From Bacteroidota bacterium (lineage in GTDB: Bacteria; Bacteroidota; Bacteroidia; B-17B0; Aurantibacillaceae): DNA of 64,000 nucleotides. The notes under the pieces were generated by a model, which was not told the origin of the DNA, did not search any database, and was given only the letters and a program-made list of their open reading frames with translations. Numbering within the stretch: position 1 is the stretch's first letter; every line of letters begins with the position of its first letter. The translations under genes and the position numbers were made by a program. Shown piece after piece: positions 44,653 through 47,016 of this stretch. The DNA lies in assembly GCA_016185125.1 (NCBI GenBank), contig JACPOC010000022.1:62001-126000 (forward strand), given 5' to 3'.

Positions 44653-44890
44653 AGTCTGAATTTGGTAGTTAAAGATAATGAAATTATACACAACATTATA
44701 ATCGAAACATTATATTTAAAATTTAAAAGGATTTAGAAATTTAAGGAAACCATTTTAAAGGTAATGCTCATCATTCCCTGATAGAAAAATGGCTTTTCGG
44801 CTTTAAAAAATCGGCTTTTAGCCATCCTTAAAAAGCGTTTACCTAAAAAAGTTAACTATCCTTTTAAACCCGTTGTAATTTTACTTTCAA

Positions 44891-45008
44891 GAAACAACCC
44901 CGTAAGGTTTTTTCAAACAAACTGGATGAAATGTTAAAATCTCATCAAACACACGAATTAAATCCCGTAAGATTTATTCGCCCACTTGTAGCCCCGTAAG
45001 GCTAACAA
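44891..45008 (+). ncRNA. Three hairpins with identical CCGTAA loops (candidate structured RNA)
   Basis: Hairpin 1 (44891-44914), hairpin 2 (44954-44980) and hairpin 3 (44986-45008) have stems of 8, 10 and 8 base pairs, each with one mismatch or bulge, and a C-G closing pair around the same hexaloop CCGTAA. The stems are different in sequence, so the pairing is kept while the bases change. They lie in a gene-free stretch (44653-45073) just upstream of a terminator. Function is unknown: they could be a regulatory leader, a small RNA or copies of a short palindromic repeat. The strand is chosen because of the terminator that follows. Confidence 0.6.
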
Positions 45009-45022
45009 ACAAAATGAAAAGC

Positions 45023-45049
45023 AGCCTGCATTTTGCGGGCTTTTTTTTT
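45023..45049 (+). terminator. Rho-independent terminator with no plus-strand gene upstream
   Basis: A 7-bp stem (45023-45029 with 45035-45041, one G-T wobble) is followed by nine T. It lies 24 bases before the ATG at 45074 and follows the three hairpins. No plus-strand gene is present in the 420 bases before it, so it ends either an untranslated RNA or a leader of the downstream gene. Confidence 0.8.
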
Positions 45050-45073: not shown

Positions 45074-45691
45074 ATGAAAAAAAGTATCCAAGCAGTAATT
45101 ATTCTTTTAGTAGTGGGTTTTATATCAAACTCCTATGCTCAATCGTTTGCCAAGCAACAGATAGATATTAATTTTGGCGTGGGAATTGGAAATACATTTA
45201 TAAAATCCGGCGCTTCTAAAGTTCTTCCGGTCATCAGCACCTCTTTTGATTATGGAATTACGGATGCCATTAGCATTGGTGCTTATTTGGGATATTCAAA
45301 CGCCACCTATAATTTTAATGGCAGAAATTTTTGCCCTTCCGGAAATGGAAATGGTAACGCTTTTGGAAATTATTTTGATTATACAGATACTTATACATAT
45401 AAATTTTCAATAGTGGGTTTAAGAGGCGCGTATCACTTTGCCAAGTTTATTAACAGCGATAAAACAGATGTGTATTTAGGCGCTATGGCCGGAGCTAATC
45501 TGGTTCAATCTACTTATTCCACCAACGATCCTTGCGCAGAACACATAGCACTTCCGATTCAAAAATACAATGGATTTATCTACTCAGGTTATGCGGGTGT
45601 AAGATATAGATTTACTGAAAATATAGGAATTTTTGCAGAATTAGGTTACGGTATTTCTTACGCTACTTTAGGTATAAATTTTAAATTTTAA
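45074..45691 (+). CDS. Outer membrane beta-barrel protein
   Basis: A 205-residue protein with a clear signal peptide (MKKSIQAVIILLVVGFISNSYA, cleavage before QSFA). The mature part has alternating strands such as DAISIGAYLGYSNATYNF, GLRGAYHFAKFI and YSGYAGVRYRFTENIGIFAE, ending in a terminal Phe. It is of the size and type of eight-stranded OmpW/OmpX-like barrels of Bacteroidota. No substrate is evident. It is separated from the hairpin region by a terminator, so its own transcription start must lie within about 25 bases upstream or be reached by read-through. Confidence 0.85.
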   Translation: MKKSIQAVIILLVVGFISNSYAQSFAKQQIDINFGVGIGNTFIKSGASKVLPVISTSFDYGITDAISIGAYLGYSNATYNFNGRNFCPSGNGNGNAFGNYFDYTDTYTYKFSIVGLRGAYHFAKFINSDKTDVYLGAMAGANLVQSTYSTNDPCAEHIALPIQKYNGFIYSGYAGVRYRFTENIGIFAELGYGISYATLGINFKF

Positions 45692-45750: not shown

Positions 45751-45758
45751 TATATTTG
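45751..45758 (+). promoter_or_regulatory. Bacteroidota -7 element (TATATTTG) for the double-receiver gene
   Basis: TATATTTG matches TAnnTTTG. It covers the upstream ATG at 45756, so that ATG cannot be the start; the ATG at 45789 fits a transcript starting at about 45765. Confidence 0.5.
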
Positions 45759-45788
45759 TATGACCGTTATTTTAATCGGCATAATAAT

Positions 45789-46598
45789 ATGTTAAAACAT
45801 TCACGCATTTCGGTATTTATTGTAGAAGATAATAATCTGTACACTTATTTCCTTAATGATGCGCTTCAGGATGAAGGCGAATTTAACATCACCACTTTTG
45901 AAACCGCTACACAGTGCCTTGAATCTTTAGAGGATAAGCCCGATATTATTGTAATGGATTATTATCTGGAAGATGGTAAAACAGGCCTTGACTTTTTTAA
46001 AACCATACACAAAAAATATCCTAAACTTCCGGTTATTGTATTATCTGGTCAGGATGATGTGCAGGTGGCTGCAGACCTTATGGAGGCCGGCGTGCATGAA
46101 TATCTTCAGAAAAAAGATAAAGATGTGGTTGAAAAACTAAAAAAAGCTATTTTAGATATCAGCCACGAAAGGCATCATGAATATTTTGAAGAATTTTGGT
46201 CGAAAAAAGTAAAATCAAAAAGCATTTTTATTGTTGAAGATAATGCCACGTATGCAAAAGCGCTGGAGTTATTTTTAAAGAAAGCTTTTCCTGACAACAC
46301 CGATGTAAAAATATTTCCGGTAGGTGAAATAGCTTTAATGGAATTAGACAGGCGCAATCCAAGCATCGTTATAATGGATTATCATTTAGATGCACGCTAC
46401 TTCGATGCCGAGCCGGGCCTGGTTGCCATAAAAGATATTAAAGAAAAAAAGCCCGACACGCATATTATTTTATTAAGCGCGCAAGATGAAATTAGCGTGG
46501 CAGTAGAAGCCACCAAAACTTACCATTGCCATTACGTTAAAAAGGATGATCATTCCTTTGAAAAAATTGAGGCTTTTGTTCGAAGTGTGTGGCCTTAA
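45789..46598 (+). CDS. Protein with two response-regulator receiver domains and no output domain
   Basis: A 269-residue protein with two full receiver domains, about residues 5-125 and 150-265. Each has the acidic pair (EDN), the phospho-acceptor Asp (IVMDYYLEDG; VIMDYHLDAR), the Ser in LSGQD or LSAQD and the conserved Lys (QKKD; VKKDD). No DNA-binding, HPt or kinase domain is present, and no partner kinase is nearby. It may be a phosphate sink or relay, or act by protein contact. Start ATG at 45789 is preferred over 45756 because a -7 box covers the latter and the receiver fold begins at once. Confidence 0.87.
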   Translation: MLKHSRISVFIVEDNNLYTYFLNDALQDEGEFNITTFETATQCLESLEDKPDIIVMDYYLEDGKTGLDFFKTIHKKYPKLPVIVLSGQDDVQVAADLMEAGVHEYLQKKDKDVVEKLKKAILDISHERHHEYFEEFWSKKVKSKSIFIVEDNATYAKALELFLKKAFPDNTDVKIFPVGEIALMELDRRNPSIVIMDYHLDARYFDAEPGLVAIKDIKEKKPDTHIILLSAQDEISVAVEATKTYHCHYVKKDDHSFEKIEAFVRSVWP

Positions 46599-46722: not shown

Positions 46723-47016
46723 ATGAAAAAATTAATTTTACTTTTCGCCTCAACGCTATTTGCTTTTAGTCTTGCAGCAGCAAATCCAATTTTTAAGAAC
46801 AACAACGGCGATGATAAATGCACGTATTGCTGTCCAAAATGTAAAAAATGCGAATCTAAGGAAGGCGATTGTGCTAAAGACAAATGCGCCATGGTAAAAA
46901 GCGGCACTTATTGTTGTACAAAAGATATGACCACCAGTGAAGTAGAGGCAAAATGCCCAAAGTGCCACAACGACATGAAAAAGGTTGAATGTAAAAAAGC
47001 GGACACTAAAAAATAA
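46723..47016 (+). CDS. Small exported Cys-rich protein, possible heavy-metal binder
   Basis: A 97-residue protein with a signal peptide (LILLFASTLFAFSLAAA) and a mature part with twelve Cys in pairs such as CTYCCPKCKKC and CPKCHNDM. The AKCPKCHNDMKKVE end resembles part of the heavy-metal-binding domain that contains CPKCGMDL. It probably binds metal ions or holds disulfides in the periplasm. It is flanked by 124 bases upstream and a strong terminator downstream. The role is inferred from composition. Confidence 0.75.
   Translation: MKKLILLFASTLFAFSLAAANPIFKNNNGDDKCTYCCPKCKKCESKEGDCAKDKCAMVKSGTYCCTKDMTTSEVEAKCPKCHNDMKKVECKKADTKK

Follow-up and report, generated by a model that had tools for sequence, protein, structure and literature searches.

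Why do three consecutive hairpins with different stems carry the same loop, and what does the terminator behind them end? The question is raised by a short intergenic stretch of the window, i.e., the whole 64-kb stretch of DNA analysed, for which the initial annotation had weighed a small RNA, a leader and, with some preference, a palindromic repeat family. Three hairpins, each with the loop CCGTAA closed by a C-G pair, and the terminator behind them lie where they had been described, all on the plus strand. Hairpin 1 (44891-44914; GAAACAACC[CCGTAA]GGTTTTTTC) extends the core AACC[CCGTAA]GGTT into a longer stem with one mismatch, the inner stem of hairpin 2 is TAAATC[CCGTAA]GATTTA (44959-44976), its outer pairs reaching 44954-44980, and hairpin 3 is TAGCC[CCGTAA]GGCTA (44989-45004). 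The intrinsic terminator (45023-45049), composed of a stem at 45023-45041 and then a T run, gives the predicted 3' end of the RNA, while a promoter -7-like element, TAATTTTAC (44876-44884, plus strand), which resembles the Bacteroidota element TAnnTTTG and the upstream element found across the genus, places the predicted transcription start about 5-7 nt 3' of itself. Promoter element, array and terminator thus delimit a predicted small RNA of ~160 nt (44889-45049, plus strand), in which three CYGUAA hairpins are strung along an A-rich linker and followed by the terminator. The description of this terminator as ownerless holds for its upstream side, but 25 bp past it starts a plus-strand ORF (45074-45691) for a small outer-membrane beta-barrel protein (OMP; OMP_b-brl-like, below the Pfam cut-off). 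Folding of the 173-nt stretch yielded -39 kcal/mol vs -26.2 (sd 3.4) in shuffled sequences (z -3.7), none of 200 of which folded as well. The covariance model of the family, run on the 64-kb window, matched only the three hairpin sites at E <1 (0.0003, 0.0003 and 0.0025), which speaks for specificity and is not an independent discovery, as the window hairpins were part of its training set; in an Rfam scan of the window, tRNA was the sole match.

The window array has counterparts in its own genome, where BLAST of the stretch found copies of AACCCCGTAAGGTT at two further intergenic sites. One of them, on contig C54 and located 3' of atpG, carries 12 hairpins (L341:8774-9182; G000 C54:110773-111181) and contains a 137-bp unit repeated three times with 94% matches, which shows that arrays are able to grow by tandem duplication with their stems staying paired. 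The other, on contig C46, has two good hairpins and a weak one, followed by a terminator. A single-hairpin covariance model (R1), built from 83 hairpins, gave 19 matches genome-wide at E up to 10, 17 of them inside the three arrays, and the two that lie outside are weak single hairpins. The short motif CCCGTAAG alone is not enriched in the genome (54 matches vs 62 for the reversed control); what stands out in the genome is that the sites cluster and have paired flanks, not the count of CCCGTAAG. Other CCGTAA-loop hairpins, for which the initial annotation had proposed to search, were found elsewhere in the genome, and a relative has them in its orthologous intergenic region.

Altogether we collected 50 arrays with 297 hairpins from several families of the class Bacteroidia, each array holding 2 to 15 hairpins in tandem. 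Among the 221 distinct hairpins of these arrays, the sampling of which was keyed on the CYGUAA loop, the loop is CCGTAA in 202 and CTGTAA in 19. The closing pair is C-G in 213 of the 221, and the remainder mostly have compensated T-A, A-T or G-C pairs. At the third pair the 5' base is a purine in 99% of the distinct hairpins, and in 52 of 54 distinct 4-bp stems, while the linkers between the hairpins are A-rich (48% A). The pairing of the stems was assessed at loci picked by three spaced CCCGTAAG alone, with the stems unconstrained. At 32 such Bacteroidota loci, stem positions 1-4 outside the fixed C-G pair were paired at 84/87/86/70% vs 50/61/47/40% in shuffled controls, with all pair types present, and at 86 loci of other phyla they paired at 40/41/43/37%, which equals chance. 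The covariation score of alignment A1 was likewise high (0.72 vs 0.23 shuffled, 0/500 as high), but A1 had been selected for stems of at least 4 bp, and the loop-only loci are therefore the fair test. They lend strong support to the proposal that the RNA structure, with its conserved loop, is under selection; that the CYGUAA hairpin arrays are an RNA family is near certain. The invariant loop, the C-G closing pair and the purine of the third pair together define the recognition element R-N-C-[CYGUAA]-G-N-Y. A GNRA-type reading, in which the preceding C would close a GUAA tetraloop, was discarded since the outer closing pair varies with compensation (T-A, A-T, G-C), which fits a hexaloop. In a subclass of hairpins (L162, L320, L341, L044), the apical stem of 4 bp is separated by a small asymmetric internal loop (about CT/T) from a second, short paired stem, e.g., GAG-TT-GACC[CCGTAA]GGTC-T-CTC.

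The arrays carry the marks of transcription units. Within the 50 arrays all 297 hairpins lie on the sense strand and none on the antisense strand. The element TAnYTTTAC, mostly TAnTTTTAC, precedes 9 of 12 arrays of the genus at a distance of 15-60 nt and is found on the mirrored side of 0 of 12, against a background of 0.038 per 65-nt search interval (P about 3e-11). Save for the last base it matches TAnnTTTG, the consensus of the Bacteroidota -7 element (PMC7366714), and it is often followed on its 3' side by GAAACAA, the likely 5' end of the RNA; beyond the genus the promoter signal of the arrays is weak. Terminators in the sense direction follow 26 of 46 arrays; the mirrored side has 11, and 0.6 would be expected after shuffling. 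In about 11 arrays the last CYGUAA hairpin doubles as the terminator. As every loop contains TAA, translation through an array is unlikely. The small-RNA option of the initial annotation gains strong support from the single orientation, the promoter element and the terminators, and this part of the window is very probably the gene of a small RNA made of repeated hairpins.

The impression that such elements are also present in other Bacteroidota was right, and arrays were found in scattered families of Bacteroidia. Two CCYGTAAG within 10-40 nt were found in 19 of 60 relatives, the matches in reversed controls being few and single, and the triple pattern in 22 of the 395 Bacteroidia genomes sampled (15 of 197 genera, about ten families). 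Most carriers of the triple pattern have plain hairpin arrays, and one (G657) has a plain tandem repeat without stems. The spread is patchy, with carriers making up about 8 of 36 genomes of the same genus and about 5% of the sampled Bacteroidia. Among the matches listed, carriers in public genomes include Adhaeribacter aerolatus, A. aquaticus and Chitinophagaceae IBVUCB1, together with MAGs labelled Flavipsychrobacter, Chitinophagales and Chryseobacterium. When the model was run across the phylum at E up to 0.05, most matches stood alone and were about as numerous as chance would give, so only clusters were counted. Pattern matches in other phyla (Streptomyces, Clostridia, Anaerolineae and others) had stems at chance level or were plain tandem repeats, those in Prevotella and some other gut Bacteroidales failed the stem test, and 18 matches in viral contigs contained no hairpin arrays. 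Two other kinds of repeats lie among these matches. In the Anaerolineae MAG Zod_Metabat.387 (L092, L116, L123, L191) the 22-bp tandem repeat GATCCATTTCCCGTAAGGAAAC occurs many times and on several contigs; it is unrelated to the hairpin family. The viral contigs L195, L200, L202, L204 and L206 have in common identical-looking 15-bp repeats without stems, TCGGCACCCCGTAAG, perhaps repetitive coding sequence.

What, then, could such an RNA do? The family combines selection for stem pairing, an invariant loop, a single orientation and transcription signals with multiple copies in trans-like placement. The best overall explanation, to which we would give an even chance, is that the window encodes a discrete small RNA with its own promoter and terminator, a member of a Bacteroidota bead-on-string family that titrates one protein. 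Each hairpin would be a putative site for one RNA-binding protein, with the stem sequence free as long as it pairs, a single array RNA might bind many copies of the protein, and it could thereby draw the candidate protein away from mRNA or other targets. The analogy is with CsrB, which titrates CsrA; CsrB and RsmZ RNAs are decoys of CsrA and RsmE, and the protein here would be a different one. The titration reading follows from the fixed loop, the closing pair and the third-pair purine, repeated 2-15 times on A-rich linkers. The arrays resemble CsrB/CsrC and RsmX/Y/Z in having many hairpins with one loop motif, variable stems, several paralogues per genome and a terminator at the end, and also in being standalone RNAs, which is here predicted from promoter and terminator signals. 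They differ in the loop, which is GGA in CsrB/RsmZ and here CCGTAA or CTGTAA (CYGUAA) closed by C-G, and in the lack of the known partner, as CsrA (PF02599) was absent from all 29 genomes tested, array genomes included, as was Hfq (PF17209), while the controls matched. A further difference is that copies of the motif in mRNAs are not obvious; with only two weak single hairpins outside the arrays of the genome, mRNA targets with the same hairpin are not evident, unlike for CsrA. To our knowledge, Bacteroidota mostly lack the known global RNA-binding proteins, and their post-transcriptional regulation is poorly understood for this reason. We hypothesize, tentatively and at somewhat less than an even chance, that part of the Bacteroidota, which lack CsrA and Hfq, has an independent Csr-like system, in which multi-hairpin decoy RNAs titrate a putative hexaloop-binding protein via R-N-C-[CYGUAA]-G-N-Y.

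The main rival, unlikely in our judgement, is an antisense small RNA whose six-letter loops are repeated seeds for UUACRG in mRNAs or other RNA, which it regulates or sponges. The loop is indeed invariant and exposed, and the change of C to T at loop position 2 would keep the pairing with G (C-G to U-G). Multicopy families of base-pairing sRNAs also exist in Bacteroides, such as the paralogous FopS/GibS sRNAs, which have sigma-ABfr promoters and the RRM-1 protein RbpB as partner, RRM-1 proteins being global RNA binders in Bacteroides (PMC11697453). The likeness lies in the multicopy, paralogous nature of sRNAs in Bacteroidota; FopS, however, has a single-stranded 5' seed and a terminator and no hairpin array. 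RRM-1 proteins occur in most array genomes, usually in single copy, and also in array-less genomes, but G523 and G643, array genomes that are 98-100% complete, lack them, and none was found in G011 (91% complete). Their absence from G523 and G643 and presence in array-less genomes suggest that RRM-1 is not an obligatory partner of the arrays. Against the antisense reading, a seed confined to the loop leaves unexplained why the closing pair is nearly always C-G and why the third pair has a purine on its 5' side in 99% of the distinct hairpins, and no target was found. Pairing of the loop with a tRNA anticodon or with rRNA is a further conceivable role.

Multivalent hairpins on A-rich linkers (48% A) would also suit a role as scaffold, in RNA stability, in the recruitment of a ribonuclease or in a ribonucleoprotein, all without titration. 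Target hairpins were not found in the genome, which agrees with such a role. There is nothing specific against it, or otherwise in its favour, and we regard it as quite unlikely.

A leader acting in cis, in which the window array and its terminator would form an attenuator of the OMP gene (45074-45691) with the occupancy of the hairpins setting the read-through, is likewise quite unlikely. The terminator ends 25 bp before the ATG, which leaves little room for a separate promoter, and the order array, terminator, OMP gene is common to the window and the relative G003, with 3 and 5 hairpins, respectively, and OMPs that are 67% identical. More distant relatives of the OMP (about 30-44% identical), however, have no array, and the other two arrays of the genome precede convergent genes. 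In the family as a whole, the gene 3' of the array is more often on the opposite strand (about 23 cases) than in the same orientation within 250 nt (about 15). The neighbours mostly differ from array to array, and those that recur do so mainly at orthologous loci of near relatives; the clustering of array neighbours for a conserved gene that might encode a partner likewise gave mainly orthologous loci, as well as common large secreted proteins. Differing neighbours, and antisense downstream genes at least as frequent as sense ones, fit action in trans. The leader option of the initial annotation is thus possible at the window locus, where the order is kept in G003 and the array possibly exerts some control of read-through into the OMP gene, but not elsewhere, where the downstream genes vary and are often antisense.

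That the hairpins are mobile or selfish palindromic DNA repeats of the REP type, with the structure acting as DNA, is scarcely credible and mostly refuted, for although repeated intergenic palindromes as in REP/BIME, the tandem triplication of the 137-bp unit in the C54 array and the patchy distribution would suit it, the dispersed repeat family that the initial annotation preferred is contradicted by hairpins confined almost entirely to arrays (17 of the 19 matches in the genome), in one orientation (297 sense, 0 antisense), with promoter and terminator, with a conserved loop and not a conserved stem, the stems not being repeated sequences, and neither plasmids, where the C54 array had no match, nor the 18 viral pattern matches yielded such arrays.

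The decoy RNA thus stays our preferred reading, and dozens of identical loops on free stems would make a ready bait, the hairpin of about 20 nt being an exact ligand for fishing out the candidate protein. Should no protein be found, the arrays would still give annotation a new class of structured non-coding RNA that is easy to recognise. The family is absent from Rfam; none of the arrays among eight loci matched Rfam 15, even at E up to 1, and a search of open-access papers by description and by the sequence, written as DNA and as RNA, gave no report of CYGUAA arrays. The STAXI and pan motifs, which are protein-binding-like RNA motifs, are similar in being small structures repeated in tandem, but STAXI are pseudoknots, and pan motifs have a bulged A and lie in cis to the pan genes (PMC2864571). 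Beyond the OMP gene, the window encodes on its plus strand a 280-aa protein (45756-46598) in which two response-regulator receiver stretches are all that is clear of its domains, and a 97-aa Cys/Lys-rich, secreted-looking protein (46723-47016) with many CxxC pairs and no Pfam match. Near the arrays L306, L121 and L310 lie genes that, from the appearance of their sequences, we take to be UspA-like, Hsp20-like and DUF983-like, and these neighbourhoods are perhaps stress-related.
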